Assembly: GCA_025057975.1 (NCBI GenBank)
Contig: JANWUV010000019.1
Coordinates: forward strand, 1 to 60,096
Origin: Chloracidobacterium sp.
GTDB lineage: Bacteria > Acidobacteriota > Blastocatellia > Chloracidobacteriales > Chloracidobacteriaceae
Length of the DNA: 60,096 nt
Direction: 5' to 3'
Both the position numbers and the translations under genes were made by a program. Of the stretch, positions 15,097-56,402 are shown piece after piece. The notes under the pieces were generated by a model that had not been told where the DNA came from, did no database searches, and saw nothing but the letters and a program-made list of their open reading frames with translations. Position 1 is the first letter of the stretch. Each line of letters begins with the position of its first letter.

Positions 15097-15423
15097 TCAC
15101 CCAGAAAACGCCTTCATAAAGCTTTTGAGCGCCGCCGGATCATTCGACTTGATGCGTCCGGCGAAAAAATCTCCGGCGCTCGGCTGGTACTCGCCTCGCC
15201 ACATGCGCAGAAAAAGCTCGGCCGAAGTCTTCAGCACCACATCCGCCTGTTCCGTCGCCTTCCCCTGCGTCACCCGGCACGTTTGCGCGTCAAGCGTGAC
15301 CGTCCATTTCTCGTCGTCCAGCGAAAAATAAAACGTCGTCGGTTTCGTGAAGACTCCGGCGCGGTATTGTTTGGCCAGCTCCTGAAAAATGGCGGCAATC
15401 GGCGAGGTCGGCTTTGTCGGCAT
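15097..15423 (-). CDS. SCP2 sterol-binding domain protein
   Basis: A 108-residue protein from ATG 15423 (MPTKPTSPIAAIFQELAKQYRAG). It is a stand-alone SCP2 fold: FYFSLDDEKWTVTLDAQTCRVTQGKATEQADVVLKTSAELFLRMWRGEYQPSAGDFFAGRIKSNDPAALKSFMKAF. This matches the usual pattern of W-x-V-x-L strand, ADVV-x-TS and the terminal amphipathic helix. Family members bind lipids or fatty acyl groups in a hydrophobic tunnel. It is 43 bases downstream of moaA and five bases upstream of the HEAT-TonB gene. A longer upstream frame has poor composition. Confidence 0.85.
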   Translation of the reverse strand: MPTKPTSPIAAIFQELAKQYRAGVFTKPTTFYFSLDDEKWTVTLDAQTCRVTQGKATEQADVVLKTSAELFLRMWRGEYQPSAGDFFAGRIKSNDPAALKSFMKAFSG

Positions 15424-38449: not shown

Positions 38450-38583
38450 CGCAGCAAGCTCCCGGATGAAAAACCCTGTGTTTCAAGACGCGACGGCTGG
38501 AAAGCAAGCTGTGTTGTACTATTATCACGCTCCCTGCCGCCTGTGCTCAGGCGCAAATCCCGGCTTTGAGACAAAATCGTCCC

Positions 38584-40335
38584 ATGGCCGAAGCCAGTTA
38601 TAAGGCGCGTCTGCGCGACCTGTTTGGCAAAGATTGGTGCGACGCTGTTCTCACAGGCGATTACTTTCCTGTTTTGCCGTGTTCAATTCAGGACGTAGAC
38701 CTTACAGCCGTCCTGCCGACGCTGTTTTATCTTTTCCGCTTTGGACGGCGGCGCGGACAAGGACGCTTCGCCGAGGTTTTCGGCGAACGTGCAACTGTCG
38801 AACACGTCGCCGCACGACTGGCGACGAGCCGGTACTGTCAGGGGTTTGACGACGCACCGACGCAGACCATCCTTGGCGATCTGCTGTTGGGATTTTGCCT
38901 CGAAAACAGAGACCGCTCGGAGCGAAAGGATGAACCCATTCAGCGCGCCCTGCCGGTTCATTACTTCGCAAGCCGGCTTGATTTGCCGCCCGACAGTAGC
39001 GACCTGCGGTATGTGCCGGAAATGCTTGTGGCGCTTCTCGCCGACCAACCAGGGCCGGTTGTTGAGCCAACCCCTGATGGCCTCGCCACGCCGTTCCCCG
39101 TCGGTGCGCGGTTTCGTGAGAACCTGCTGCTGAAGCCGTTCGTCACCGGCGTGACCGTCCATGGCCTGGCTGGCGACCTGACGGCCGACCGTTTTGACGA
39201 GACGACGCCCGTCACGCTTCAGGAATGGCTGATGATTCGGCTAGCCGACCTACTAGAACGAGCCCCCAAATCCATGGTGGGCAGGTTTGCTCCCATTGTG
39301 AATCGGCGGCCGTTGGCGGCGCGTGCAGCGCGGGTCTTTCGCACCGACCTAGAGACGTTTATGAGCGCCTACGGCGAAACGATGCCGCGCGGCGTCCTAC
39401 TCAACCTGCTGGAATCCGCCCTTGCAATCGGGATGACGACACTTCTGACGAGCACAGCGCAGCTCATACTTGACTGGGCGGAAACCGGAAGCGTACCCAC
39501 TGACCAACACCCCATGCCGCTGTTTCTGGACGCTTCAAACGGGCGCGACCAAGAACTGCGCGCCGCCTCGAAAAAGGTTATGGATGAGGCCGTCAAGCAA
39601 ATGGCGAACATCCCGGCCGTGCTGATGACGTTGCGCCTGCTGGATTACGAAGCGCGCTGCGACGCGGAGCTTGGTCCGCAACTGCCGCCGGATGCGCCCG
39701 ATGCGCACGAACGCATCAACTTGCTGGGCGATGTGTGGTTCGAGCGGCGCGTGGGCGCAGGGCGCATCCTTGATGAACTAGGACGAAAGGCGTTGCGCCT
39801 CGCCGAGGTATGGGCTGATGATGCGCCGATGTTGGCGAAAAAACTCCGCGCGCCGATGTCGCCGCATGCGCGTGTCCGCGTGTTAGCGGAAACATTGGTG
39901 GAACTGCGTGGGACGAAGCAGGCTAACAAGTGGTTTGCGCTGTTCGATTCCTGCCTACTGTGTGATCATCCGCGCGGCCTGGCCGTCAAGCGCGCTGCGG
40001 CAGCCGGGGGACGCCAGCCGCCCCGCCTCACATTGCTGACGGACGATGTTCTGGACTACTTGGCGCACCTTTGGTGCGCCCATGCCGCACGCCGTCGCCT
40101 GCCAGCGACCTTCAACCACTTTCTCAACATGACGCGCGAACGCTACGGGTTTTATACGGTGACATCGCCCAGCGCGGTGAGGCTGCCGGGCAAGTTGCTC
40201 AATCAAAACCAACAGCACCTTGAAATGCGACTGCGCGACCTTGGGCTGCTGGCGAGCGTCAGCGACGCCGAAGCCATGAAGCGTCTTCAAGCGCGCTTTG
40301 TGGTTGCGCCATTGACGACAGGTGGTACTGCATGA
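38584..40335 (+). CDS. First gene of Dpt-like operon, DptG-type candidate of unknown fold
   Basis: A 583-residue protein from ATG 38584 (MAEASYKARLRDLFGKDWCDAVLTGDYFPVLPCSIQDV); a TTG at 38566 is an alternative. I see no membrane segment or nucleotide-binding motif. The sequence is mostly helical, with a C-x2-C pair (FDSCLLCDHPRG, Cys457 and Cys460). The C-terminal region (DYLAHLWCAHAARRRLPATFNHFLNMTRERYGFYTV...LRDLGLLASVSDAEAMKRLQARFVV) reads like a winged-helix end. Its position directly before a DptH-type HerA ATPase and a DptF-type ATPase suggests the DptG role. The assignment rests mainly on context, and the protein is longer than I recall for classical DptG. It overlaps the next gene by ATGA. 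Confidence 0.7.
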   Translation: MAEASYKARLRDLFGKDWCDAVLTGDYFPVLPCSIQDVDLTAVLPTLFYLFRFGRRRGQGRFAEVFGERATVEHVAARLATSRYCQGFDDAPTQTILGDLLLGFCLENRDRSERKDEPIQRALPVHYFASRLDLPPDSSDLRYVPEMLVALLADQPGPVVEPTPDGLATPFPVGARFRENLLLKPFVTGVTVHGLAGDLTADRFDETTPVTLQEWLMIRLADLLERAPKSMVGRFAPIVNRRPLAARAARVFRTDLETFMSAYGETMPRGVLLNLLESALAIGMTTLLTSTAQLILDWAETGSVPTDQHPMPLFLDASNGRDQELRAASKKVMDEAVKQMANIPAVLMTLRLLDYEARCDAELGPQLPPDAPDAHERINLLGDVWFERRVGAGRILDELGRKALRLAEVWADDAPMLAKKLRAPMSPHARVRVLAETLVELRGTKQANKWFALFDSCLLCDHPRGLAVKRAAAAGGRQPPRLTLLTDDVLDYLAHLWCAHAARRRLPATFNHFLNMTRERYGFYTVTSPSAVRLPGKLLNQNQQHLEMRLRDLGLLASVSDAEAMKRLQARFVVAPLTTGGTA

Positions 40336-43300
40336 CGCAAAAACCCCTAACCCCTATCCACGACTGGACGGAAGCGCATGCTCGACACCTCGCCGAGGCG
40401 TTCAAGAAAATGATGAGAAAGGCGAAGCCGGGCAAGGTGTACTTCCTCCGCAACCCATCGCCGGATGTGCTTTACCGCCTGCCGAACGATGATCTTTTTT
40501 GCGAGGCGCTGGAGGGAGAAGGCTGGCAGGTTTTTCGCGTCGCCGACCAGTATGACCTACGGGCGCGCGCCATCACCTCCGACCACGCCGTAGCGATTCG
40601 AGAGACCAAACAGCAGGCAGTCCTCTTTCTGGTGGACACCCAAAAGGCCGGCCCCGGCATGGACGGCATCTACAGCGCCGGTACGGAACTAAGTGAAAAA
40701 GAACTCATAGACAGGGCCTGCAAGCACGCCTTTGAGGCCATCCCTGAAACATTCCATCCTAGCCTCAAGCGCGTCTTGGCGTTGGCCAAAAAGCGCGATT
40801 CACAGCGTCCTGGCTGGTTTCAGTTTGATTTCTTGGCGCGCGTTGTCGGTCATCCCGAACAGTGGCCCGAATACCTGTGGCTGCTTGGCTTGTGGCCTTG
40901 CGCCGCTTCGCGCTTGCAAAACATCAAGCGCAAGGCTGATGAAGAAAATCTTCTGAAGGAAGCGGCGACTATGGCGGACGCCCTGCTTGGCGTTGGCGGC
41001 GAGCGTTTGACGCCTGAAGCGCGTATGGCGCAAGTCGGCGTTCGCGCGCCATCACCGGAAGGTTTGGACGCCCTGCGGGCCTTTCTTGAAGAACAACGAG
41101 GACAGTCAACCGACGAGGCGCTGCGGCGACTACGCGACCGTCCCGATTTGTGGCTCGGGCCGCTCCACCTTGAACCGCCGGACGATCGTTTGGACAGGAT
41201 TGAGCTGGTTGGTTGGCGTAGTGTACGCGGCGCACAGCCGCTTAAGTGGTCAGGTTTGCATCTCGACCCGGCGGATCAAACGCTGCTGTGGGTAGTTGAT
41301 CCTGACGCCGACGACGCCCCGCCGCTGACAGTCAAATGGCGTGTCCTACCGGAAACGCTCAAGCCGCAAAGCGTTCAGTACCGCGTGGCCGTCGTGAGCG
41401 ATCTAGACGAAACGCTGGCCGAGCGCGAAGTGACGCATACCGGCAAGGCTGAGGAAAAGACCGCCTTCACGGCCGACGACTTGGCGCTGAACGGCTCGGT
41501 ATGGGTGCGGGCTAAAGTCGTGGTGGAGGCCGAAGGTCAGCGGGCGGAAAGCGAGTCGTTTGTCATCCGTTCCGGCCGTGTGGAAGTCGCCGCCGTGCAG
41601 CGTGCAGTTGGAAGGCGCGTCCGTACGTTGAGCGAAGGACTGATTGAACTCGACGAACCAGCCGCCGTCGCTGAGGCGCTCAAAAACGACCTCACCGAGG
41701 AAGGAATGACAGGGTGGGCGACGCTAATTGTTAGCCGCAACCGCCGGTTGAGCATCAGCGCGCCGGCGCTGCTCCGTGAAGTCGCTAGATTGTGGTCAAA
41801 CCACCACGGGAAAAAGATTGGACGGTGGCGGTTGATGATACGCGCCTCCGGACGGTGGGCGCGCGACATCGAATTTGTCCCCTACTCCCCCATCGTTGGG
41901 ACGCCTATGCGCGCTTGGCATCGAGTCTGCAGCGCCAGCGGACGCTTGGCGGAGTACGTCCGCCGCGTCGGGCTTTACGGGCTGTGTTACGCCGAAGGGG
42001 CGCCCTCGACTCAAATCATCGGCGAGTATCTCGACGCTTGGGGCGAGTTGCTGGAAGCCGTCGCCGCCCAAAAGGCATTCAACGGGCCGCCGCTGCCACT
42101 GGTTGGCACGATTGAGGTTTATACGTCGAACAACCAAACCGTCGGTCTGATCGTCTCCCCGTTGCATCCGTTGCGTCTGGCATGGCTCACGGCGTATGAC
42201 GCGCTGCTCTTTCACGCCCGATGGACGGAAGGCGCTCCCGCTGAAGCCATCCGCCGGGAATTCCATGTTCTGGACGGCGCTTGGTTTCCGGCTTGGCTGC
42301 CCGGCGTCGACAACACGCCGGCTTTTGTTTTCGCTGAGACGCTTAGCTTGCATGCCGTCGCCATGACGCGCGCTAACGCAACTGAGCCGAAAGCCGACTG
42401 TCTATTGCTGGCGCGCGCGTTGGAAAACCAAGAACGCCCCGATGACGCTGTACCGCCGGAAACGGTTGATCGGCGCATCATCGAGCGATTGGGGGCGGAA
42501 ATCAAAGCCTACGCTGACGGACACCCATACCAACGACGCTTGCACGTCCACGCCCTTCGCGCCGGGGACGGAAGGACCATCACTCGCGCACTGGGTTGGG
42601 CCCAGGCGGCGCAAGAGGCGTCGCCGGCGTCGGAGACGGATGACGCTGAACCGTCGCCGGATAAAGCGGCGCTCACCTTCATGCTTGAGCTATACGCCCC
42701 GCCTGGTGGAACGAGGATTGATGGTGGTTTTCTTGACCATATCACCATCCGTCGCCGCGCCCGTGGCCGCGCCGCCATTCCAGCGGAAGACCGGTGGATA
42801 ACAGAGGTGCGGCCGGGCGTTGGAGGTCACCTGCAACCCACATTCCAGTGGGCGCAGCGGCCGGTGGCGCTGCCGGAAACGCCGGCTCATCTGGGCGTCC
42901 TATTCGACGCCTTTGCGTCGGCGGTCGCCACGGCGGTTCGCCCGCCGCTCAAAGGCGACGCCCAGCCGTTCTACGGCTTGCTTTCAGGTTTGATTCGAAC
43001 GTATCGCGCGTCACCGACGCCTACCTGGGAGGCTTTCCTACCGAACGATGAAAAAACGGCCGTCCATCCGGCCGGAGAAGTTCATACCGAGCGCCTGCGG
43101 CGACTTCAACGCGGGATCGCGGCTTGGCTGACGCTGGGGAGGCCAGGGGCATCACCGATATTGCGGGCGGCGCTGTCGCCGGAGAGCAAAGCCGAACTTG
43201 ATCGCCTGCATGCGCTGTGCGACTGGGTGGTGACGTTTGACCGCTTCGCCGGGGCGGAATACCTCGATCATCCACGGGCGCACCCAGACGCTTATGAAAC

Positions 43301-45383
43301 CTATGTCATTGACTACCTGCCGGAGCGCGACGACTTAGGCGACGCACGGATCGTTGTCTCAACCGCCCTTATGACGGAAGTCGTTGAGTTGCTGGGCGAG
43401 TTGCTCAAGCAGGTCGGCCTGCCGGAAGACGCAGCGGCAGCGCAGTTTCTGCTGGAGCGACTTAAGGCGTTGAGTCGGCGGCTGCCGATTCGATTGGCAG
43501 GCGCACGGCCGCCGGCGCAAGAGTTGCTGGCGTTGGCCTACGCCTCCGCGTCTTGCGCTGCCGCCGAAGCCGACGACCCTTGCTGGGTGTCTCTGCGGCA
43601 GGGCGTCCTCGTTCCGCTAGACGATGTCCGCGACTTACTGCCCGCGTCCAATCGGTCACAGACTAACCGGGGCCCAGAACGCCGGGCGGATTTCCTGTAC
43701 GTTTCCTTGGCTTCCGACGCGCGGTTGCAGATGCGCGTCATCGAAGTCAAGTACCGGCGTCACTTAGCCGATTTTTCGGCTGAAGAGAAAGCAAAATTGC
43801 TGACCGACATTCGCGCCCAAGTCGAAGTGACGCGAGAGCGTTTTCGCGCCCACTACCTTGATAGGTCACTTCCGAAATCATTCCGTGCATTGCATCAGGC
43901 GCGTCTTTTGCGCGTCATCAAGTCTTATGCCGACAAGTCGGTACGGCATCACCTTGAAGCGGCAGCGTATGACGCGCTCTGCGCTGAACTTGACCGTGCG
44001 TTTGCCGCTGCTGGCGACTATGAGTTTGATACGCCCGAAGGAGGCGACCGAGGTTGGGTATTTTGTCCAGCGTTTGACAAAGTGCGTCCACTAGAGCTTT
44101 CGCACGCCGGCTGGCCTGTGCCGACGTTTTGTTTCGGGCCGCACGGGACGACCTTCACCGGACGCCCACTGCACTCGCCAGCCCAGCCGCTGCACCATGA
44201 AGTCCGCCAAGCTGCAACGACTGACCTACCTGCACTAAACCGGCATGCGGCAGGAGGCTTCACAGGTGACGGCGATCCGGCGCTCGTACGGGAGCCGGCA
44301 TCCAACGCGACCGGTGGGGACTATGAGGAAGTGATGATTCCGTTGGGCTGGACGCCGGACGGCGCTCCCGTCAACTGGCGGCTGACCATTCAGGGCAATC
44401 CACACCTACTGGTGGTTGGCTTGCCCGGCATGGGCAAGACGACCTGTCTTGTCAACATTGCGCGCCGGATGTACGCGCAGGGGATTTGTCCGATTGTGTT
44501 TTCCTACGCGCCGGATTTCGACGAAAAAATGGCGGTTGGCGGCCGCGTGGACTTCATTGAAGTGGGCCGTCTAGATTTCAACCCCTTGGAAATCAACGAC
44601 CATGCAACACCGAGAGCTTATGTCCAAGTCGCTGGGATGGTTCGAGACATTTTCGCAGCGATCTACCCAGATTTGGGCGAGTTGCAGCTCAATGCGTTAC
44701 GAAAGGCGATTGTTGAGAGTTTTCGGGCGGCGGGGTGGGACGATACGACAACGGGCGGTATTCCGCCCTTCAGAAGCTTTGTTGATCTGCTGCGCCGGAC
44801 GCCACGCCCCGACGCCGGCCTGCGTAACCTGTTGGCGCGCTTGGATGAACTGGAGGACTACGGCTTTTTCGACGCCCCACTCGGCCAAGAGCCGCAAAGT
44901 CTGTGGACGCGGGAACGCCCAGTAATCGTCCCGCTGCACCGGCAACCGGTCGAGACGCTGCAAACCGGGCTGGCGACGCTGGTGCTTTACAAGCTTTACA
45001 AGGACATGTTCCGGCGTGGTCCGGCGGCGCGCATCACACACGCCGTCATTTTTGACGAAGCCCACCGCGCGCGCCGCTTGACGCTGATTCCGACAATGGC
45101 GAAAGAATGCCGCAAATTCGGCGTCTCACTGGTGCTGGCGTCGCAGGAAGCGCGCGACTTTGATCGCAGCTTGTTTTCCGCTATCGGGCGGCAGCTCGTC
45201 CTGCGCGTCAACGAAGCCGACGCACGAGCGCTGACCCAAAACGTCGCGGCGTCCAGTCGGCAACGGACGCTAGCGGACGAACTCAAGGCGTTGCCGAAGT
45301 TTCACGCACTCTACTTCGACGAGGGCGGCCAAGTCGTCCTGTGTCGCCTATTTGATGAGGCCGAGGCGGAGCGCCGCCGTTGA
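40332..45383 (+). CDS. DptH-like giant protein: PD-(D/E)xK nuclease motif plus HerA/FtsK-type ATPase
   Basis: A 1683-residue protein whose ATG overlaps the previous stop (ATGA). The first 1100 residues are of unknown fold. They include an N-terminal segment (KVYFLRNPSPDVLYRLPNDDLFCEALEGEGWQVFRVADQY...AVLFLVDTQKAGPGMDGIYSAGTELSE) and a beta-sandwich-like middle. RRADFLYVSLASDARLQMRVIEVKYRRH gives Asp1120 and Glu1138-x-Lys1140, the layout of a PD-(D/E)xK nuclease. The C-terminal ATPase has Walker A GLPGMGKTTC (Lys1369), Walker B AVIFDEAH (Asp1575-Glu1576) and a sensor-like LVLASQEARDFD, typical of HerA helicases. DptH proteins of phosphorothioation-dependent restriction have this size and ATPase. 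It probably translocates and cuts DNA. Confidence 0.85.
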   Translation: MTQKPLTPIHDWTEAHARHLAEAFKKMMRKAKPGKVYFLRNPSPDVLYRLPNDDLFCEALEGEGWQVFRVADQYDLRARAITSDHAVAIRETKQQAVLFLVDTQKAGPGMDGIYSAGTELSEKELIDRACKHAFEAIPETFHPSLKRVLALAKKRDSQRPGWFQFDFLARVVGHPEQWPEYLWLLGLWPCAASRLQNIKRKADEENLLKEAATMADALLGVGGERLTPEARMAQVGVRAPSPEGLDALRAFLEEQRGQSTDEALRRLRDRPDLWLGPLHLEPPDDRLDRIELVGWRSVRGAQPLKWSGLHLDPADQTLLWVVDPDADDAPPLTVKWRVLPETLKPQSVQYRVAVVSDLDETLAEREVTHTGKAEEKTAFTADDLALNGSVWVRAKVVVEAEGQRAESESFVIRSGRVEVAAVQRAVGRRVRTLSEGLIELDEPAAVAEALKNDLTEEGMTGWATLIVSRNRRLSISAPALLREVARLWSNHHGKKIGRWRLMIRASGRWARDIEFVPYSPIVGTPMRAWHRVCSASGRLAEYVRRVGLYGLCYAEGAPSTQIIGEYLDAWGELLEAVAAQKAFNGPPLPLVGTIEVYTSNNQTVGLIVSPLHPLRLAWLTAYDALLFHARWTEGAPAEAIRREFHVLDGAWFPAWLPGVDNTPAFVFAETLSLHAVAMTRANATEPKADCLLLARALENQERPDDAVPPETVDRRIIERLGAEIKAYADGHPYQRRLHVHALRAGDGRTITRALGWAQAAQEASPASETDDAEPSPDKAALTFMLELYAPPGGTRIDGGFLDHITIRRRARGRAAIPAEDRWITEVRPGVGGHLQPTFQWAQRPVALPETPAHLGVLFDAFASAVATAVRPPLKGDAQPFYGLLSGLIRTYRASPTPTWEAFLPNDEKTAVHPAGEVHTERLRRLQRGIAAWLTLGRPGASPILRAALSPESKAELDRLHALCDWVVTFDRFAGAEYLDHPRAHPDAYETYVIDYLPERDDLGDARIVVSTALMTEVVELLGELLKQVGLPEDAAAAQFLLERLKALSRRLPIRLAGARPPAQELLALAYASASCAAAEADDPCWVSLRQGVLVPLDDVRDLLPASNRSQTNRGPERRADFLYVSLASDARLQMRVIEVKYRRHLADFSAEEKAKLLTDIRAQVEVTRERFRAHYLDRSLPKSFRALHQARLLRVIKSYADKSVRHHLEAAAYDALCAELDRAFAAAGDYEFDTPEGGDRGWVFCPAFDKVRPLELSHAGWPVPTFCFGPHGTTFTGRPLHSPAQPLHHEVRQAATTDLPALNRHAAGGFTGDGDPALVREPASNATGGDYEEVMIPLGWTPDGAPVNWRLTIQGNPHLLVVGLPGMGKTTCLVNIARRMYAQGICPIVFSYAPDFDEKMAVGGRVDFIEVGRLDFNPLEINDHATPRAYVQVAGMVRDIFAAIYPDLGELQLNALRKAIVESFRAAGWDDTTTGGIPPFRSFVDLLRRTPRPDAGLRNLLARLDELEDYGFFDAPLGQEPQSLWTRERPVIVPLHRQPVETLQTGLATLVLYKLYKDMFRRGPAARITHAVIFDEAHRARRLTLIPTMAKECRKFGVSLVLASQEARDFDRSLFSAIGRQLVLRVNEADARALTQNVAASSRQRTLADELKALPKFHALYFDEGGQVVLCRLFDEAEAERRR

Positions 45384-47155
45384 CAACCAACCGTACAGCC
45401 ATGGCGTCCGAACAAAAAGGGCGGAAGAGGTTGAAATGGCTTGACAAAGTCCAGCAGGCATACGCCGGGTCGCGGCGCGGCAACCGTGAAACCCACGGCT
45501 TGGACAGTGACTTCGCTCGGCGAACGTACGTACCAACCGGCTTTGAAGACACCCTCAAGGCGGCGATTCTCGCCCGGCGTCATCGGTTAATCATCCTCTG
45601 CGGCAACGCCGGCGACGGTAAGACGGCGTTGCTTCAGCGCCTGGCTGAGTTGCTGGGCTACACTCCACCGCGCGCCAAGCCGGGCTTAGTGGCGTTTCGC
45701 CCGGCGGCGGGCGGGCCGCAGGTTGAGATGAACTTAGACGGCTCGGCCGCTTGGGATGACCACTCTTCCGACGCGGCGCTGGACGATTTTCTTGCGCCGT
45801 TCGCCGACGGCCGCGCGCCGGACGCGGACGTGGTGCGCCTGCTGGCGATCAACGACGGTCGCCTGCTGGAATGGGCTGAACGCCGACAGACGCCGTTGGC
45901 GGCGACACTGCGCGCTTTGCTAGAAGGGCGTCCAGTGGACGCGCCGCACATCGCCTTCATTCACTTGAACCGGCGCGCGTTGGTTGGGGCGTTCACCTCG
46001 GACGGGACGCTGGATGTCGCTTTTCTGGATACGCTGGTGGATCAGCTCTACGGCGGCGATCAGGCCGACGCAATCTGGTCGAAGTGTCACAGCTGCATCG
46101 CCCAGCCGCACTGCGAAGTGTTTCGCGCCGCGCGGTTGTTCGGCCCAGCTAATCTACCGGGCGTCGTCCCCGACGTTGAACGCCGGCGATTAGCTCGCCG
46201 CCGCCTCTACGCGGCGTTTCAAGCAGTGCATTTGCGCGGCCGGATGCACATCACTGTCCGAGACCTACGCGGGGCGCTGGTGTACATCCTATTCGGTACG
46301 GCCTCCTGCAAAACCTACTGGGACGAAAAGCCCTACCCGCCGTATTGGGCGCGCGCGTTCGCGGCGGCGACGAAGCACCGTCAGGGCCGCCTGCTGGAAG
46401 AGTTGACGGCGCTTGATCCGGCCCTAGAAGCCCAAGCGCGGCTTGACCGGGTTCTGCTCAAGGCGGTGCGGCGCGGCTTTGCACGTGATCTGGCGGATGC
46501 ACGACGGCGAGCCTACTTCGAGTGGACAGACGCCGAGGTGACGGCGGCGGGCGGACCTGACGCGCGGCTTGACGTGGCGCGCGGCCGGCATCTTGACCTT
46601 CTACGCCGCCTGCCCTTTCTTTCCGAAAAGGAAAAACGGGAACTGACAGCGCATTTGTGTCACGGGCTGTCGCGGGTCGAGTCGTTGCCGCCGGTCGCCT
46701 ACGCCCGCGCCGGGGTTGCGCCGTTACGGGTTCAGTCGCGGACACCAACGGAGACGGTTTTCTGGGTGGAAGTCCAGGTAGCTGATTTCCATCTGGAGGC
46801 CGACCTCCAAGTGGTGAATCCGTTTGCGGCGGCTGACCAGCGGAGCGGGCTGCATCAAAGCGCCTACTTGACGCACCGCACATCTGGCGATTCGTCCTTA
46901 CGGTTGCGCCTCAACGCGGACTTGTTCCACATGTTGCTGGAGCTTGACCGTGGTTATCGGCTGAGCGCGGCGACTGTGGATGAAACGTTCGCGCATCTGA
47001 CGTTGTTTACCGAGCAACTGATTCGGGCGCAGGCGGGCGAACTCTATGCTTGGCATCCGTCGCGCGAGGACACCGTATATCGGCTTGCGCTGCGGACATG
47101 TGATCTGGGTTGGGGATTGCATCAACAGTTGACGATTGCGCCCACCGGCGCATAG
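45380..47155 (+). CDS. DptF-like P-loop ATPase with Cys cluster
   Basis: A 591-residue protein. TTG 45380 overlaps the previous stop (TTGA) and has GGAG upstream; ATG 45401 is the alternative start. Walker A is LIILCGNAGDGKTALLQRL (Lys81), with the N-terminal QQAYAGSRRGNRETHGLDSDFARRTYVPTGFEDTL before it. A cysteine cluster KCHSCIAQPHC (Cys236, Cys239, Cys245), possibly with the later SCKTYW, could bind zinc or an iron-sulfur cluster. This agrees with the DptF class of phosphorothioation-dependent restriction proteins (LCGN-x-GDGK Walker A). It is the third gene of the coupled operon. The flavin monooxygenase gene begins 36 bases later on the same strand. Confidence 0.8.
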   Translation: MTTNRTAMASEQKGRKRLKWLDKVQQAYAGSRRGNRETHGLDSDFARRTYVPTGFEDTLKAAILARRHRLIILCGNAGDGKTALLQRLAELLGYTPPRAKPGLVAFRPAAGGPQVEMNLDGSAAWDDHSSDAALDDFLAPFADGRAPDADVVRLLAINDGRLLEWAERRQTPLAATLRALLEGRPVDAPHIAFIHLNRRALVGAFTSDGTLDVAFLDTLVDQLYGGDQADAIWSKCHSCIAQPHCEVFRAARLFGPANLPGVVPDVERRRLARRRLYAAFQAVHLRGRMHITVRDLRGALVYILFGTASCKTYWDEKPYPPYWARAFAAATKHRQGRLLEELTALDPALEAQARLDRVLLKAVRRGFARDLADARRRAYFEWTDAEVTAAGGPDARLDVARGRHLDLLRRLPFLSEKEKRELTAHLCHGLSRVESLPPVAYARAGVAPLRVQSRTPTETVFWVEVQVADFHLEADLQVVNPFAAADQRSGLHQSAYLTHRTSGDSSLRLRLNADLFHMLLELDRGYRLSAATVDETFAHLTLFTEQLIRAQAGELYAWHPSREDTVYRLALRTCDLGWGLHQQLTIAPTGA

Positions 47156-47191
47156 ACGACCGCCGTTGTGACGGCGATGGACAGGAGCCTG

Positions 47192-48502
47192 ATGGAGAAC
47201 CGGACAAACCATTTGTTGGTCATTGGGGCCGGGCCAACGGGACTGGTTGTGGCGCGCGCGCTCAAACAGGCCGGCATACCGTACGACCAAGTTGACGCCG
47301 ATGAGGACGTCGGCGGCAACTGGCGGCATGGGGTTTATGAAACGGTGCACATCATCTCGTCCCGTAAAACCACGTCGTTTCCTGAATATCCGATGCCGGC
47401 GCACTACCCGGACTTTCCGAGCCGCGCCCAAATGCTGGCCTATCTGTGTGATTACGCCCGACACTTTGCGTTGCGCGCCAACATCGAGTTTCGGCGGGAA
47501 GTGAGTCTGGCGACGCCGCTTGAGGACTGGTCATGGCGTGTCCAATTCACCGACGGGACGGAACGACGTTACAAAGGCGTCGTCGTATGCAACGGACATC
47601 ACTGGGACCGGCGCTTCCCCGACTATCCGGGGCAGTTCACCGGCGAATGGATACACTCGAAAGACTACAAGCGACCCGAGCAGCTTGTCGGGAAGCGTGT
47701 CTTGGTCATCGGCGGCGGCAACTCGGCCTGCGACATTGCCTCGGAAGCGGCGCGCGTCGCCGTTTGCAGCCACCTAAGCCTGCGACGCGGCTACTGGTTT
47801 TTGCCCAAGACGATGCTTGGCATTCCAACCGTGGAAATCATGCGCGGGTGGCTACCTGTCCCGGCGCAAAGGGCGCTGCTGCGCTTGTTGCTGCGCGTCA
47901 TTGTGGGGCGATACGCGCAGTACGGCTTGCCAGAGCCGGATCACAAAATCTTCGAGCGTCATCCAACGGTCAACTCCGAACTCCTGTACTACCTCAAGCA
48001 CGGGCGCATCCGGCCGCGCCCCGACGTGGCGCGTTTCAATGGACGCACCGTCCATTTCGTGGATGGCGCAGCCGACGAGTACGACCTAGTCGTGTGTGCG
48101 ACGGGTTTTTATGTGAGTTTTCCGTTCCTGCCGCCGGGACTGGTAACGGTTAAGGGCAGTACGGCGCAGCTTTATGCCGGCGTCATCCCGCCCCGGACGC
48201 GCAATTTGTACATCTTCGGCACGACGCAGCCGCGTTACGGTTTCGGTCCGTTAGCGAGTCCGGCGGCGGATTTACTGGCGCGCCTTATCCGGTTGCAAGA
48301 CGAGATGGTTTTGCCTCTGAGTGTTGTGTTTGAGGCCAGTGGGGCGCAGTTGCCAACAACCCATCTGGTTGACCCCCATGCGGCGCTCCGGCGCATGCGG
48401 ATGGCGCAGTGGTTTTTACCGTTTCTGGCGTGGCGGGAGCGCCGTCTTCGCAAACGGCCGGAAATCGTCGCGCTACCGCTCTGGACGCCTTCCAGCGCCT
48501 AG
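47192..48502 (+). CDS. Flavin-containing monooxygenase-like NAD(P)/FAD oxidoreductase
   Basis: A 436-residue protein from ATG 47192, which has CAGGAG six bases upstream. ATG 47177 and GTG 47168 are less well placed. FAD motif VIGAGPTGLVVARAL at the N-terminus, the ED-VGGNWRHGVYETVHIISSRKTTSFPEYPM segment, the FMO motif-like GHHWDRRFPDYPGQFTGEWIHSKDYK, the NADP site VLVIGGGNSACDIASEAAR and CATGF near residue 295 all fit class B flavin monooxygenases. It would use NADPH and oxygen on a soft nucleophile or ketone. The substrate is unknown. It starts 36 bases after the Dpt-like operon and may share its transcript. Confidence 0.9.
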   Translation: MENRTNHLLVIGAGPTGLVVARALKQAGIPYDQVDADEDVGGNWRHGVYETVHIISSRKTTSFPEYPMPAHYPDFPSRAQMLAYLCDYARHFALRANIEFRREVSLATPLEDWSWRVQFTDGTERRYKGVVVCNGHHWDRRFPDYPGQFTGEWIHSKDYKRPEQLVGKRVLVIGGGNSACDIASEAARVAVCSHLSLRRGYWFLPKTMLGIPTVEIMRGWLPVPAQRALLRLLLRVIVGRYAQYGLPEPDHKIFERHPTVNSELLYYLKHGRIRPRPDVARFNGRTVHFVDGAADEYDLVVCATGFYVSFPFLPPGLVTVKGSTAQLYAGVIPPRTRNLYIFGTTQPRYGFGPLASPAADLLARLIRLQDEMVLPLSVVFEASGAQLPTTHLVDPHAALRRMRMAQWFLPFLAWRERRLRKRPEIVALPLWTPSSA

Positions 48503-48813: not shown

Positions 48814-51800
48814 TTAGCGCCCAGCGTCGAGCGGACGCCAGTCGCCAGAGACGACAAAGGCAGCCCAGTAATACGGGTGTCGCCAATCGGTAGCCGGCCG
48901 CTGCTCTAAGTGAGACGACGACAACCCCAGTTCACGTTTGAGATCGCCTGTTTGAGGACGAATGTCGCCGCGCAGAAACTTTAGCCGCGTCGCCCGAAGC
49001 GCGTCCGCCCGTCCCTCGCCACGTGCCAAACGACGGTAGTAGTCGCCCATCAGAGCGGTCGTCGCAGCGTCGGAAACCTTCCACAAACTCATCACTTGCG
49101 TCTCCGCACCGGCCACGACCAGCGCCCGCCGCAGTCCATAGACGCCCTCTCCGGGGCGTGCTTCGCCAAGACCGGTCTCGCAGGCGGAAAAGACGACGAG
49201 CTGTGTTCCCATAAGGTCGAGGCCGGCGGCTTCAAGCGCCGTCAGAATGCCGTCTTCACCCGCGCCGCTTTGTCCCTGCCGCACGCCCGCCAAGACAAGG
49301 CCCGACCGCAACAGCGGATTTTCCTCAGCGACGGCACCCTCAGCCGCCATTCCAAGCTCCCTTGTCTCAACGTTCGCCTGTCCGATGCGCCGTCCAGGTA
49401 GAAAAAAGCCATGGGTGGCGACGTGCAAACACCACGGCGCGCGCGTCGCCTTCAAATGCGCTTCAGTCGCCTTGTCGCCGAAAACCACTTCAATGTTGTG
49501 CAACATCCCCTGCAACAAGCTGGCTTCGCGCCGCGTTCCTGGCAGCGGTGGGTAGTCCGCCAGCTGGAAATCCACTGACCGTAGCCCATCAGCTGGATGC
49601 ACCGCCGGGCCGCCACCTAGGTCATAGCGCGGGTCGGCCAACACCAACCCACGCTGGGTCTTTGTGTTGCTTTTCAGACCTCTGATGCGCGCCAAGTCAC
49701 GCCCGCTTGTCAGCAGGTTGATGGTGTACCGCTCAACCAAATAACGCCCTTGCTCATCAACCAGCGCCTCAAAAGGAATCAGATTGGCGTCTCCATCCGG
49801 CGCGATGAAAAGCCGCCGGGTTCCGTCCGGCAACGGTCGGAGCGGGGCGAAGAGTTTTTCATCCAATGCGCGCGCCGCCGTCCGCACGTCCGGCCGCCGC
49901 TCCTGCAAGGCCCAACGAAAGGTTTCAATGCGCGACGCAATCGCTTCCAACGCCCCTAGTTCGACGACGCGCGGCGCACCATCACCCGACGATAGAACAT
50001 AGGCTGCAAGGTGATACGCCGCCGCCAGTCGTCCTGGGCGCTCAGGGTCAAGCGGACGATAGACAAAGTACTCGATCAGCACGGCGTCCTTGGGGAGCGC
50101 CGCTCGGACGGCCTCGTAGGAAACGGTCTGGAGCTGCGCGCCAAGCTGCGTGAAGCGTTCTCCTAGTTTGCTTTCCTGTCGTTCAATCTCGCGCTCCAAA
50201 CGCGCGCGTTCGACTTGGGACTCGGCCTTTCCGGCCAACTGCGTCAATCGATTGCGCATTGCTTCCAAGTCGTCCAGCAAGCGTTGGTCGTCGGGGTCGG
50301 CGCGCGCGCGGAGGACGGCTGTCTGATGAGCTAAAACATCTAGCGCCCGCCCTTTGTGACGCCAGATGGTCAACAAGGCCAGCCGCGCCGCCGGCCCCTC
50401 CTTGGGAAAGTACTTCACCTGCCAAGCGACCGTCGCTTCGGCCAACTGACTGCTGCGTCGCACGTAGAGCGTCTTTTGCCGCTCAGAGCCGACAACCAAG
50501 TTCCGCCGAAAGTCGGCCTCTAACAACTCGGAGACGCGCGCCAGCCAGTCACCGGCCTGCCGAGGGCGTCCGCGAGCCAAATCAAGCCAAGCCAAACGCC
50601 CCGCTGACAGCGCCAAGTCGGGATGTCCCCGATCCAATGCTTTTTCGCGGATGTGATAGCTGCGCTGGTAAAGCGCCTCCGCCCCAGCGTAGTCGCCGCG
50701 TTGTTGGTACAACCAGCCTAGATGAGTGAGCACCGACGCCGTCAGCGGATGGTCGAGGCCGGCAGTCCGTTCAGCAATGTTTAGCGCACGTTTGAGCGTC
50801 GCTTCCGCCGCGTCATCGCCCAGCGCTGACTCGACCGCCCCAAGGTTGGCCAGCGTACTGGCGACGAGCGGATGCGTTTCGCCAAGGGCTTTTTCACGAA
50901 TCCGAAGCGCCTGTTCAAAGAGGGATTTGGCCGCCGCCAGTCGCTCCTGCAAACGGCATAGATCACCTAGATTGTTGAGGGCATGCGCAACTAGCGGGTG
51001 GTTTGGCCCTAACGCCTTTTCCCAGATGCTCAGAGCGCGCTGGTAAAGCGGTTCAGCCGTCGCGTAGTCGCCCCGGTCGCGGTACATCGCGGCCATGTTG
51101 TTGAAACTTATGGCCAGTTCGGGATGCTCCGGTCCTAGTTTTTGCTCGCGGATAGCGACGGCCCGACGGTAAAGCGGCTCGGCGGCGGCATAATCGCCGC
51201 GTACGCGGTACAGTTCAGCCAAGTTGGAAGCCGCCGTAGCGACTTCAGGATGTTCTGGGCCGAAGATTGCTTCACGCAACGTCAGGGCTTGCCGGAAGTC
51301 GTTTTCAGCGCGACGGTAATCACCCCGATCCTTGTGCAGTAGTGCGAGGTTGGTCAAAACCGTGGCGACATGCGGGTGCTTCGCCCCTAGTGTTTTTTCC
51401 CAAACGGCGCGCGCCCGGTAGTAGAGCAGTTCGGCGGCGGCGTAGTCCCCCCGCGCCCGAAGCAGTTCCGCCAAGTTGTTCAGTGTCGCCGCCGTATCCG
51501 GGTGTTCTGCGCCAAGCGCCTTTTCTCGAATCGCCAAGGCGCGGCGGTAAAGGGGTTCAGCCGCTGTGTAGTCGCCTTTGACTTTGTAAAACAGCGCGAC
51601 GCTGTTGAGGATCGCGGCCAAATCGGGATGCTCCGGGGCGCAGGTTTTCTCCATCACCTCCAACGCCCGCCGGTAGAGCGGTTCGGCCGCCCGATAATCG
51701 CCGCGCAGCCGGTAGAACAAGGCTAACCCGGCCAGACTGTGGGCGACTTCCGGATGCTCTCCGCCAAAGTGCGCTTCACAAATGGACAGCGCTCGCCGCA

Positions 51801-52104
51801 ACGCGGCCTCGGCTTCCGGAGATTGCTTGTAAGCCTGCGCCAAGCCGAGGGCGCGGTAGGCCCGCGCCGTGAGAGGCGGCGACCCGCCGGTGGCGGCTTC
51901 GCTCACGGCGACGGCTTCCTGCGCTGCCTGCAACGCAGCATCATACTGCCCCGCTTGAACCAGCGTCTCGGCTTTCCGTACCAAACTTTCCAGCGACGCG
52001 CTTCCCGGCGTCTGACTGGCTTGGGCCGGCGTACACAAGGGCGTTAGACCAACCAGCCAGCAAACCGTGCAGGCGGACATGAGCACCACAGCCAAGACAC
52101 CCAT
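48814..52104 (-). CDS. Exported TPR protein with C-terminal CHAT (caspase-like) protease domain
   Basis: A 1096-residue protein from ATG 52104 ([31 protein letters not shown]), a signal peptide. About residues 35-500 are ten or more kinesin-light-chain-type TPR units of 42 residues ([42 protein letters not shown]). A helical linker with a coiled coil follows ([37 protein letters not shown]). The CHAT domain begins near [12 protein letters not shown]. Its catalytic pair is His898 in HVATHGFF and Cys975 in [10 protein letters not shown], followed by [38 protein letters not shown]. It is the last gene of the sigma factor/kinase operon. The export signal means the protease probably acts outside the cytoplasm. 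Confidence 0.93.
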   Translation of the reverse strand: [1096 protein letters not shown]

Positions 52105-52146
52105 GGCGGCGTTTTTGAACGGACAACCACTGTGCAGTGCGCGCGT

Positions 52147-54069
52147 CTAGTGTCGAACGACGATTTCAAACACCACCGGATCGGCCGCGGACGGTGACTG
52201 TACCGCTCGTCGGAGGCCGTCGCCAGTGACTACCGTCTGTGGGGTCAAGCGTTCCACCAGCGTCGCCAGTTCCCGTTGCTGGGCCGCCGAAAGCGCCTGC
52301 CCCGGACGCAAGCCGTCAAAGACCGTCAGCTTGACGCTTGCGAGAATGACGGTGAACCGAGTAACGGCCGTGCGCGTCAGACCAATCGAGGCGTCCTTGG
52401 GAAACGTCAGCGGATATTCGGCCGGGGAGGGTTCATCGGGAACGCGAAACGCCGTCAGCCGCCCGTTGGACGGCGCAAAGATGTAGAGATAGCCAGTGCG
52501 ATGCGGCGTCATGTGAAACACAATGTCCTTGCCGGCCGGTACGGTGTCTTCAGGATTGAATGTCGCTTTTCCTCGGCGCGGATCGCCTGGCATGACAAGT
52601 TCGATGTCGTACGTGAGCGCTGGCGTCCGCACCGGGACGGCGCGCATCGCATCGAGCGTCGGCTGTGGCCGCATTTTGGTTTCAACCGTCGCCGAGTGGC
52701 TGATCGGCCGTCCTCTCCACAGCAGAACGCCAACGACCGCCGTCACCAGTATCAAAACGCTCGCCGCCACCACTAAGCGCTCCACCCATTTTCCCTGAGC
52801 GGATGGGACGTGCGGAGGCGCATCGCCGGTTGTCACCATCACGGTCTCGCCAACCGCCGCCGCCTCGGCCGCACCGCCGACTGGAGGCAGATTGGAGATT
52901 GAAATGGTCGGTTCTTCTTCGAGGGCGCGCACTGCCGCCTCCTGCCGCGCTGAGATTTCCATCGCTTGCAGGAAGGCGTTGACGAACGCCTCCGCACTTG
53001 CGTAACGCGCTTCAGCGTCATACGCCAACGCCTTGCGGAGCACCCGCTCGACTTCCTCATCCAGGTCAGGACACCGCTCGCGCAAACGCGAGCCGAAACC
53101 GGCGCGCTGCATGGCCGTCAACGACTGAATGGCGTCGCGGAGCGTGGACAACGCCGGTTTGTACGGGCGTTCGCCAGCCAACAGTTCATAGGCGATGACG
53201 CCCAGCGCGTAAATGTCCGTTGCGGCCGAGCATCCGCTGGACAGCATTTGCTCCGGCGCCATGTAGGGCAACGTCCCAACCAAGCCGTCCGGCGCCTCCT
53301 GACCGACGACCGAGTTGGTGACTTTGGCGATTCCAAAGTCAATCAACTTAACGTGCAGTGCGCCGTCGCCCAAGTCCTCCAGCATGACATTTTCCGGCTT
53401 GAGATCGCGGTGATAGACGCCTTCGCGGTGCGCCGCGCCCAACGCACGACCTATCTGAGTGACGATGTCGACGATCTCCGCCCGCGACAAACTGCGCTCT
53501 TTGAGAACATCCCGGAGCGTGACGCCTCGGATGTACTCCATTACAAAGTAGGATTGCCCTGAAAGCAGACGGCCGCGATCCAAAACCTTGACCACGCCAG
53601 GGTGGGCGATTCGCGCTAGCGCCTCGCTCTCACTCTCAAACATGCGCTGCGCCAGGGGGTCATGTTGCTGCTTGTCGAGCAGCACTTTAACGACAACAAG
53701 CCGCCCATGGAGCTGTTGGTCGCGCGCCAGATAGATGACGCCGTTGCCGCCGCGTCCCAACTCCCGCTCGACGACGTAGCGGTCGCTGACGCTTGAACCG
53801 CGCGCCTGTTGTTCGGTGTCTAGATGAAAGAAGGATTGCGTGTGGAGTACGTCGTGAACCGTCGGTAACTCGTCCGGCAGAGACACTTGAAGCGGCTTTT
53901 CAATGAAGCTCCGGGCCGCAGGATGAACGCGGAGCAATGACTCCACTTCCCGCCGGAGCGTCTGGTCGCCGGCGCAGAGCGCCGCCAAAAGTTCGGCTTG
54001 CTTGTCGGGCGGCGCTTCAATGACCTGACTGAAAACATCCGTGATGCGTTGGTACTGTTCCGGTGTCAT
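52147..54069 (-). CDS. Serine/threonine protein kinase with membrane segment and DUF4384-like outer domain
   Basis: A 640-residue protein. ATG 54069 has GGAGG nine bases upstream; ATG 54078 overlaps the sigma factor stop. The N-terminal MTPEQYQRITDVFSQVIEAPPDKQAELLAALCAGDQTLRREVESLL is an extension typical of acidobacterial kinases encoded beside Sig-70_X6 sigma factors. Kinase elements: ELGRGGNGVIYLARD, Lys128, HRDLKPEN with Asp222, DFG at 244-246, and MAPEQ. A transmembrane helix spans about 431-453. The outer domain (about 485-640) is DUF4384-like (GKDIVFHMTPHRTGYLYIFAPSNGRLTAFR). It follows the sigma factor and precedes the CHAT gene, so it may phosphorylate operon partners. Confidence 0.92.
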   Translation of the reverse strand: MTPEQYQRITDVFSQVIEAPPDKQAELLAALCAGDQTLRREVESLLRVHPAARSFIEKPLQVSLPDELPTVHDVLHTQSFFHLDTEQQARGSSVSDRYVVERELGRGGNGVIYLARDQQLHGRLVVVKVLLDKQQHDPLAQRMFESESEALARIAHPGVVKVLDRGRLLSGQSYFVMEYIRGVTLRDVLKERSLSRAEIVDIVTQIGRALGAAHREGVYHRDLKPENVMLEDLGDGALHVKLIDFGIAKVTNSVVGQEAPDGLVGTLPYMAPEQMLSSGCSAATDIYALGVIAYELLAGERPYKPALSTLRDAIQSLTAMQRAGFGSRLRERCPDLDEEVERVLRKALAYDAEARYASAEAFVNAFLQAMEISARQEAAVRALEEEPTISISNLPPVGGAAEAAAVGETVMVTTGDAPPHVPSAQGKWVERLVVAASVLILVTAVVGVLLWRGRPISHSATVETKMRPQPTLDAMRAVPVRTPALTYDIELVMPGDPRRGKATFNPEDTVPAGKDIVFHMTPHRTGYLYIFAPSNGRLTAFRVPDEPSPAEYPLTFPKDASIGLTRTAVTRFTVILASVKLTVFDGLRPGQALSAAQQRELATLVERLTPQTVVTGDGLRRAVQSPSAADPVVFEIVVRH

Positions 54070-54074
54070 GGCGG

Positions 54075-54647
54075 TCATCCTCCGCGTGTCGGCCGGAGTT
54101 CCCGGTACAGAAACGTCTTTGCCACCGCCCATTCCCGCTTGACCGTCACTGGTGAGATGCCGAGCGCCTCGGCCGTCGCCTCCACCGTCAGTCCGCTGAA
54201 GAAGCGCAGCTCAACAATCCGGCACTGGCGCGGCGCCAGACGTTCCAGCTTGTTCAGCGCTTCATCGAGCGCCAACACGTCCACTTCGCCCACCGTGTCG
54301 GGTGAAGCCACACCACCCAGTTCCTCCAGTGTGACCAAAACCTGTTCACCGCCGCGCCGAAGACGTTTCTTGCCGCGAACGTGATCAACGAGGATGCGCC
54401 GCATAAGCTGCGCCGCGATGGCGAAAAAGTGCGTCCGATTGCGCCAGTCGGCGCGCTCCTGCCGAATAAGACGCAGATAGGCTTCGTTGACCAGCGCCGT
54501 CGGCTGAAGCGTGTGTCCAACCAACTCACGCCGCATGGCGCGCGCCGCAATGCGACGCAGTTCTCCGTACACGATCGGCATCAAACGCGCCAGCGCGCTT
54601 TTATCGCCCGCTTGCCAGTCCATCAAAAGCTGTGTCACATCGCCCAT
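54075..54647 (-). CDS. ECF-type RNA polymerase sigma factor (Sig-70_X6-like)
   Basis: A 190-residue sigma factor from ATG 54647 (MGDVTQLLMDWQAGDKSALARLMPIVYGELRRIAARAMRRE). Region 2 contains QPTALVNEAYLRLIRQERADWRNRTHFFAIAAQLMRRILVDHVRGKKRLRRGG. Region 4 contains LAPRQCRIVELRFFSGLTVEATAEALGISPVTVKREWAVAKTFLYREL. The GDVT-LL opening and the LVDHAR-type motif mark the subfamily found next to Ser/Thr kinases in acidobacteria and planctomycetes. No anti-sigma gene is visible, so the adjacent kinase may replace it. The operon lies on the minus strand with spacers under 45 bases. Confidence 0.94.
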   Translation of the reverse strand: MGDVTQLLMDWQAGDKSALARLMPIVYGELRRIAARAMRRELVGHTLQPTALVNEAYLRLIRQERADWRNRTHFFAIAAQLMRRILVDHVRGKKRLRRGGEQVLVTLEELGGVASPDTVGEVDVLALDEALNKLERLAPRQCRIVELRFFSGLTVEATAEALGISPVTVKREWAVAKTFLYRELRPTRGG

Positions 54648-55658: not shown

Positions 55659-55712
55659 ACGCTGGTGACATACCGAGATTACCACCTATCTGCGCCTTAC
55701 CCCCGGTGCCTG

Positions 55713-56384
55713 ATGAAGAACACCCACGCCGCAAAGATGGATGCGATGTATCGGCGGCAACGATACATCTACGACTTATCCCGCAAGTACTTTTTGTTTG
55801 GACGCGACACCCTGCTGGCTCGACTTCCGGTGCGACCCGGCATGCGCGTCGTTGAAATTGGTTGCGGCACGGCGCGAAATCTGGTCATTTTGGCGAGCCG
55901 GCATCCGCAGGCGCAGTTTTACGGCGCGGACATCTCTAGCGAAATGTTGCTTTCGGCGCGCGCCAATATCCGCCGCCGCCGACTAGAGAATGTCGTCGTT
56001 GCGACCGCCGCCGCCGAAGGCTTCGACCACCGGGCGGTGTTCGGCCTTGATACGCCGTTTGACATTGCCTTTTTCTCGTATTCGCTTTCGATGATTCCCG
56101 ACTGGCGGGCGGCTGTTGCAGCGGCGCTCGCCAGCCTTCGTCCCGGCGGTTGGCTGGGCGTGGTGGACTTCTGGGACCAGAAGGAACTGCCGAGGTGGTT
56201 TGAAAAGCTGCTGGGGGCGTGGGTTCGACGCTTTGACGTGACGCCGCGTCCGGAAATTCTGGACGAGCTAGCCGCCCGCCGTGATCGGGGCGAAGGCAAC
56301 CTGACGATTGAAGCGGTGGGTGGGCGCTATGCGTTTATCGCGCTGTTTGAAACCGCCCTACCGAGCGCGGCGCACGCATCTTGA
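55713..56384 (+). CDS. btaB: Probable betaine-lipid N-methyltransferase BtaB
   Basis: A 223-residue SAM-dependent methyltransferase from ATG 55713 (MKNTHAAKMDAMYRRQRYIYDLSRKYFLFGRDTLLARL). Motif I is VVEIGCGTARNLVILASRHP, and GADISSEMLLSARANI and FDIAFFSYSLSMIPDWRAAVAAALASLRPGGWLGVVDFWDQKELP follow. The MYRRQRYIYDLSRKYFLFGRD start is the BtaB signature for three successive N-methylations of diacylglyceryl-homoserine. The gene for BtaA lies 18 bases downstream. Together they make diacylglyceryl-trimethylhomoserine (DGTS), a phosphorus-free membrane lipid. Confidence 0.87.
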   Translation: MKNTHAAKMDAMYRRQRYIYDLSRKYFLFGRDTLLARLPVRPGMRVVEIGCGTARNLVILASRHPQAQFYGADISSEMLLSARANIRRRRLENVVVATAAAEGFDHRAVFGLDTPFDIAFFSYSLSMIPDWRAAVAAALASLRPGGWLGVVDFWDQKELPRWFEKLLGAWVRRFDVTPRPEILDELAARRDRGEGNLTIEAVGGRYAFIALFETALPSAAHAS

Positions 56385-56402
56385 ACGTCTTTGTGAGGGT
56401 AT

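Follow-up and report, generated by a model that had tools for sequence, protein, structure and literature searches.

The subject of this analysis is an operon of three genes, G, H, and F, in Chloracidobacterium, read from a 60,096-base contig (G000:C19, referred to as a whole as the window) of a 3.52 Mb genome. With a probability of roughly 0.6, we consider the product of G-H-F to be a stand-alone restriction complex of the FGH type, placed in the DndFGH/MADS superfamily as a lineage of its own and working without DNA phosphorothioation. The reading follows from homologies with controls, agreement between the F and H trees, invariant catalytic residues, the presence of H and F across the genus, and the misses of the PF01507 and DndE models, taken together with the absence of an adjacent modification gene among those seen, a CRISPR-Cas type I-G neighbor in two genomes, and nonsynonymous divergence (dN) below synonymous divergence (dS). 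We infer that the three proteins form a complex that acts in defense, in which G would bind DNA, as its homologies suggest, H would move along DNA by means of a HerA-type motor and nick or cut it with a PD-(D/E)xK nuclease, and F would bind nucleotide and gate the complex. Self would be told from non-self either through a signal of infection or through a host DNA mark made elsewhere.

Operon layout and family placement

G, H, and F are three long open reading frames (ORFs) on the plus strand joined by successive 4-base overlaps, ATGA at 40332-40335 between G and H and TTGA at 45380-45383 between H and F. G (38584..40335) encodes a MAD7/SspG/DndG-like protein of 583 amino acids from the ATG at 38584, or of 589 (38566-40335) with the TTG at 38566 as start codon instead. 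H (40332..45383) encodes a predicted DndH/MAD8-like nuclease-translocase of 1683 amino acids. F (45380..47155) encodes a DndF/SspF-like core P-loop protein of up to 591 amino acids from its TTG; relatives in the genus begin at the equivalent of residue 8, which in the window is an ATG at 45401. An earlier, sequence-only reading of this DNA had described three coupled genes of 583, 1683, and 591 residues with a GNAGDGK motif in F, a HerA-type P-loop at the C-terminus of H, and an order unlike F-G-H, all of which the ORFs and their letters bear out. The G-H-F order is repeated at other loci of the genus, so the operon is not a chance reading, and among all of the loci read this order occurs in Chloracidobacterium only.

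In PADLOC, H matches mad8 (1.8e-20) and DndH (3.3e-16), both at the C-terminal ATPase part, with a short mid-region match to SspH (8e-4), and a PDB sequence search recovers the HerA part only, including the solved DptH structure 7es4 (E 3e-12). We aligned eight H sequences (A1), five from Chloracidobacterium, two from Rhizobium, and one from Piscinibacter at 21% identity. The PD-(D/E)xK nuclease site (43521..43820, plus strand; E1064, D1120, E1138-V-K1140, and Q1163) is invariant in all eight, as are G1363, G1366, G1368, and K1369 of the Walker A motif GLPGMGKT of the HerA-type ATPase (44418..44441, plus strand; residues 1363-1370) and the stretch from the Walker B motif DEAH (residues 1575-1578) to the sensor S1604-Q1605 (45054..45146, plus strand). 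PMC10853773 describes DndH as a nuclease plus a HerA/FtsK ATPase with a Gln sensor and a methylase domain lacking its catalytic motif, and DndG as three winged helices. By sequence motif H shows the same succession, a PD-(D/E)xK nuclease and then a HerA/FtsK ATPase with a Gln sensor; the [SDN]PP[FYW] motif is absent from H, in which the methylase domain itself is putative.

The best PADLOC match of F is SspF (1.5e-12), followed by DndF (4.8e-7), and neither PADLOC nor Pfam gave a mad6 or kinase match or an N-terminal kinase or NERD domain. The Walker A motif GNAGDGKT (45602..45625, plus strand; residues 75-82) is invariant across eight F sequences (A3) bar one Ala/Pro position. DndF is distinguished by an ND motif after strand 2 and an Asn in Walker B, according to PMC10853773. 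F has these features by sequence motif, with an intact Walker A (G75-T82), N158-D159, and an Asn-type Walker B, HLN, at 195-197 (45851..45970, plus strand); N158, L196, and N197 are invariant in the same alignment, and D159 is replaced by Glu in its sole MADS row (L006). A cluster of three Cys residues, C236, C239, and C245 (46085..46114, plus strand), is invariant as well and may form a Zn insert.

G matches the NCBIfam MADS7 model over residues 36-577 (589-aa numbering; 8.4e-27) with 94.4 bits, under the cut-off of 410, and in PADLOC it matches mad7 (5.6e-6) and SspG (1.3e-3). SspG models align to the C-terminal region (40054..40293, plus strand; residues 491-570 of the 583-aa form), a probable winged helix with per-residue model confidence (pLDDT) in blocks of 67-84. 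PDB sequence searches with G or F returned nothing useful.

Profile-profile comparison, with sets of four to six sequences per protein (two in the Rhizobium sets), ties all three proteins to the superfamily. Chloracidobacterium F gave 100% against MADS F (492 columns) and 99.2% against DptF (440 columns), and H gave 100% against MADS H (1466 columns) and 99.1% against DptH over residues 938-1660. MADS G bridges G and DptG, with 99.3% to G (500 columns) and 95.3% to DptG. Each of the nine control comparisons with unrelated proteins, three window proteins per gene, stayed at or below 1%. Against the DptF equivalog model, F scores 12.1 bits at a cut-off of 50, where the DptF of an Aliivibrio plasmid scores 525 bits. 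On these sequence comparisons the operon is a member of the DndFGH superfamily outside Dpt proper, with profile scores nearer to MADS (MAD6 C-terminus, MAD7, and MAD8) than to Dpt. The Dpt-like restriction module proposed from sequence alone therefore stands as a three-gene DndFGH-superfamily module, but its nearest named relatives by profile are MADS, F stays under the DptF equivalog cut-off, and G shows no direct match to DptG (0.9%).

Trees built from 18 rows for F and 17 for H, none of them SspFGH and without an outside root, agree in joining Chloracidobacterium and Rhizobium in one group with support of 100/100. This group is separated from MADS with 88/92 in the F tree and 99/97 in the H tree, and from Dpt with 100/100; the Dpt rows form long branches, and the F tree carries a long-branch warning. 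As judged from these trees, Chloracidobacterium and two Rhizobium plasmid loci are a lineage apart from both MADS and Dpt. We do not claim MADS as the sister group because three groups without an outside root cannot show which two are sisters.

Search for a DNA mark

The genes flanking the operon in the window encode a POT transporter, a hydrolase, a flavin monooxygenase (FMO), and a CHAT protein, as the sequence-only reading had it. A Pfam scan of 17 ORFs of the window (the 3 of the operon and 14 flanking ones, a part of the window's ORFs) turned up no dnd gene. Nor was a modification gene seen beside the operon among the flanking ORFs listed or scanned at the other loci read. PF01507, the PAPS reductase family that includes DndC, SspD, and CysH, gave no match in any of the seven genus genomes, three of which consist of two contigs each, and was found in 14 of 14 control genomes. 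The Aliivibrio plasmid DndC scores 31.5 bits against PF01507 at a cut-off of 22.5; because a known DndC clears the model this narrowly, a very divergent one could be missed. DndE (PF08870), whose model matches two dnd plasmids and none of the 14 control genomes, was likewise found in 0/7 genus genomes, a search that did not extend to DndB, DndD, SspB, or SspC. With no DndC-family gene found in any of the seven genomes, the genus seems to lack the known phosphorothioate pathway. We hold it to be very improbable that this is an ordinary phosphorothioate system split in two, its dnd or ssp modification genes lying elsewhere: such a split would account for SspF being the best match of F, and the narrow DndC test leaves it some room, but neither the sulfurtransferase family nor DndE was found in the seven genus genomes, and the dnd cluster that the sequence-only reading had envisaged elsewhere in the genome was not found. 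This absence is less surprising because a self-sufficient DndFGH has already been proposed (PMC10853773).

MADS-type loci contain type-I-like methylase genes, and at one of the Rhizobium loci, that of R. anhuiense, two DNA methyltransferases follow H, which suggested that the operon may be part of a split MADS-like system that spares DNA methylated by one or more scattered core methyltransferases of the genus. Candidates of this kind exist. PF01555 methyltransferases of family A are present in 7/7 genus genomes and those of family C in 6/7, and a third family, B, groups members from four genomes and has likely members in the other three. PF02384, the MADS-type methylase family, exceeds its cut-off in only 4/7 genomes, and in the window genome the match is short and partial (81 of 311 positions). 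In the match lists, no PF02384 or PF01555 gene comes within 20 kb of the operon, save in G397, where methyltransferase A is some 5 kb away from G; cytosine-C5 methyltransferases (PF00145) were not searched. Compared with the 20 Chloracidobacterium methyltransferase loci that were fetched, the R. anhuiense enzymes show only weak similarity, at best E 2e-7 across 86 residues. Relatives of methyltransferase A, at 60% and 49% identity, occur in two order-level genomes (G346 and G063) that have no H match, so a coupling of A to the operon is not supported; within the genus, H and A are both present in 7/7 genomes, and their co-occurrence cannot separate the readings. On balance we regard the split MADS-like arrangement as unlikely, though it is the strongest of the rival explanations.

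At three loci (L079, L090, and L096), inspection by eye showed no endonuclease next to a DNA methyltransferase that is core or near-core in the genus; the methyltransferase of L096 sits between two ABC-transporter ATPase genes. The window itself contains a small-molecule-type methyltransferase beside a DUF3419 protein (55665-57629), a pair reminiscent of betaine-lipid synthesis genes and not of DNA modification.

Distribution, neighbors, and evolution

H matches in all seven genus genomes; it is full or nearly full in five (G000, G096, G123, G165, and G396) and cut by the contig end in G398. F is present in 6/7, and in 6/6 of those at least 90% complete, the miss being G398, where the H contig ends before F. 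These counts come from genome searches; G was compared locus by locus at the fetched loci. The nearest named records are Chloracidobacterium metagenome-assembled genomes, with H identities of 68% and 62%. Across the phylum, H matches at E ≤ 0.001 in 28 of 396 genomes, nearly full length only in four Chloracidobacterium genomes of that draw; the remaining matches are partial and mostly confined to the ATPase part. The DptF model matched 0/396 of these genomes, which included no control match, a result that shows nothing by itself. Five plasmid records match H, of which two, both from Rhizobium, cover >80% of it. No H homologue was found in the phage collection at E ≤ 1e-3, and viral contigs gave two loci with H, three with F, and none with G.

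The operon occupies several different sites, for which gene names other than Cas, POT, and FMO were assigned by eye from sequence. In the window it lies between the POT transporter and FMO. At L002 the order is trpD, GHF, FMO, and trpG, and L003 runs from trpD through G and H to the contig end. L063 and L064 share a CRISPR-Cas type I-G region, GHF, FMO, and a TonB-like gene, and at L061 metH and hemN-like genes precede GHF, which is followed by two small genes and a moaA-like gene. Conversely, GHF is missing from L066, which has trpD, FMO, and trpG with roughly 3 kb extra between the last two, and from L062, which has FMO and a TonB-like gene. The operon thus moves relative to FMO. In G165 the type I-G run (L064:32-5600; part of Cas3g, Cas8g/Csx17, Cas7g/Csb1, and Csb2) stands directly upstream of G; Cas families were assigned from NCBIfam for L064 and by eye for L063.

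The flavin monooxygenase gene of the window (47168..48502, plus strand; PF00743, 6.1e-49) starts 12 bases after F and adjoins F in four of the six genomes in which both were located, standing apart in two. We considered it as a fourth component and rejected it, since it stands without GHF in G096 and G397 and since identity to the window's gene is 82-87% for its intact copies, as against 48-75% for G, H, and F; it is probably outside the system. In G123 the gene following GHF is split into two frames (L040 and L042). Farther downstream on the minus strand (48814-54647), the window encodes a TPR-CHAT protein, a Ser/Thr protein kinase, and an extracytoplasmic function (ECF) sigma factor, possibly a signaling or death module.

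Sequence divergence indicates that the evolution of the operon is fast and mosaic. Between the window and the other complete Chloracidobacterium copies, identity is 48-68% for H, 52-72% for G, and 57-75% for F, compared with 82-91% for methyltransferase A and the 82-87% of intact FMO copies; the broken FMO gene of G123 gives 79% and 83% for its two pieces. Whole-gene dN is below dS for G, H, and F in every pair tested (for H of the window against L002, dN 0.205 and dS 1.16), the exception on a finer scale being a single block of 150 codons of G when the close pair L063/L064 is compared (dN 0.0155 vs dS 0.008). In that same pair (L063:8897-13930 vs L064:8660-13705), H residues 1 to about 890 show a dS of 0.21-0.58 per 150-codon block and the remainder 0-0.175, with the neighboring G at 0-0.055. 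The N-terminal half of H is probably a recombination tract that stops sharply near residue 890, although the pattern is suggestive only. Mosaic tracts are also seen in the CRISPR genes and at the C-terminus of F, and we therefore do not claim recombination as a feature specific to H.

These data bear on what the complex might do. A genus-core DNA-processing complex with a non-defense role such as repair or segregation would fit with genus-wide presence, even at several sites, but we judge it improbable given that the operon has diverged more quickly than either core protein used for comparison, is mosaic, has a CRISPR neighbor in two genomes, and has relatives beside methylases on plasmids. 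In PMC10853773, DNA-binding and recognition domains are assigned to the N-terminal half of DndH. A bolder form of the stand-alone reading, which we put forward tentatively and hold to be possible without favoring it, is that the operon represents a third FGH lineage without any dedicated DNA mark, in which invader would be told from self by a DNA state or by a nucleotide signal that F reads, and exchange of the N-terminal half of H would diversify the target preference.

The stand-alone reading and known FGH systems

Several observations weigh against a stand-alone complex. G397 holds only a fragment of H (residues 1431-1679); at this locus (L065:8921-11145) the G match ends near residue 432, H starts at about 1431-1436, and F is nearly whole, a gap of apparently several kb that could stem from a deletion or from faulty assembly. 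The AlphaFold model of G is poor (mean pLDDT 45.4), its C-terminal region being the best modeled, as is that of H residues 470-1330 (mean pLDDT 38.4), and G lacks a direct profile link to DptG. Methyltransferases able to supply a mark are present in every genus genome. Finally, SspFGH alone is toxic in E. coli free of phosphorothioates, as PMC8092258 reports, so that a markless relative would need another restraint, and none was found. SspFGH and DndFGH harm a host without the matching DNA mark (PMC8092258, PMC12707154).

SspFGH damages DNA lacking phosphorothioates and restricts phage in tests (PMC8092258). In 2024, DndFGH was argued to be stand-alone and to read several signals, on a count of 1798 taxa in which DndFGH components occur and just 316 with the full set of eight Dnd genes (PMC10853773). 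Chloracidobacterium may already be among its taxa lists; no paper on the Chloracidobacterium operon appeared, by title or start of abstract, among the open-licence matches listed. In this genus of phototrophic Acidobacteria a related complex persists although neither a phosphorothioate sulfurtransferase nor an adjacent methylase was detected, which lets nature test the idea, put forward in 2024, of a DndFGH that needs no partner. With three genes and no kinase, the operon is also a minimal system in which to study the signal sensed by F and the choice of DNA by H.

The closest relatives are the FGH loci on plasmids of R. phaseoli R630 and R. anhuiense T24, full-length homologues with identities of 38-41% for F, 38% for G, and 36-37% for H. 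They differ in their gene order, F-G-H, and in an N-terminal region of F annotated as NERD/kinase, which in R. phaseoli matches MAD6 models under the cut-off (154 bits vs 460); R. anhuiense differs further in the two methyltransferases behind H. At the R. anhuiense locus the frame of H is already open from L005:14989, so the true start may precede the one annotated at 15151.

The MADS loci that we read comprise kinase-F, G, and H together with a methylase gene or a pair of them and, in most cases, a specificity subunit (none is annotated at the Piscinibacter locus, where the methylase is present). Their profiles match across nearly the whole of F, G, and H, whereas the Chloracidobacterium operon has no kinase, no methylase or specificity subunit seen alongside, a different gene order, a G far below the MAD7 cut-off, and a separate position in both trees. 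One viral contig (L076:9980-21592) carries a kinase-less MADS-like locus in the order F, G, methylase, specificity subunit, and H.

With DndFGH/DptFGH the operon shares the core of F and the nuclease-HerA half of H. It differs in an F below the DptF cut-off, a G without a direct DptG match, an unmatched N-terminal half of H, and the order G-H-F. On the Aliivibrio plasmid dptFGH adjoins dndEDC, and on a Pseudoalteromonas megaplasmid (L101:13588-14887) dptG, annotated as two coding sequences, lies beside dnd genes. Plasmids of L. brevis (L103:10038-19092) and Priestia (L097:3754-13020) carry dptFGH, and the stretches displayed contain no dnd gene; the Priestia genes are accompanied by a methylase of the Dam type and an endonuclease of the AlwI family, and the L. 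brevis stretch shows no methylase either.

SspFGH resembles the operon in that F matches SspF models best, the C-terminus of G matches SspG, and the mid-region of H briefly matches SspH; it differs in its PF01507 partner, of which the genus yielded none, and its sequences stand outside the trees. Taken together, these comparisons lead us to conclude that the Chloracidobacterium operon is a divergent stand-alone variant of the kind predicted in 2024 (PMC10853773) and not a new category of system, set apart by its G-H-F order and by its fast, mosaic evolution.

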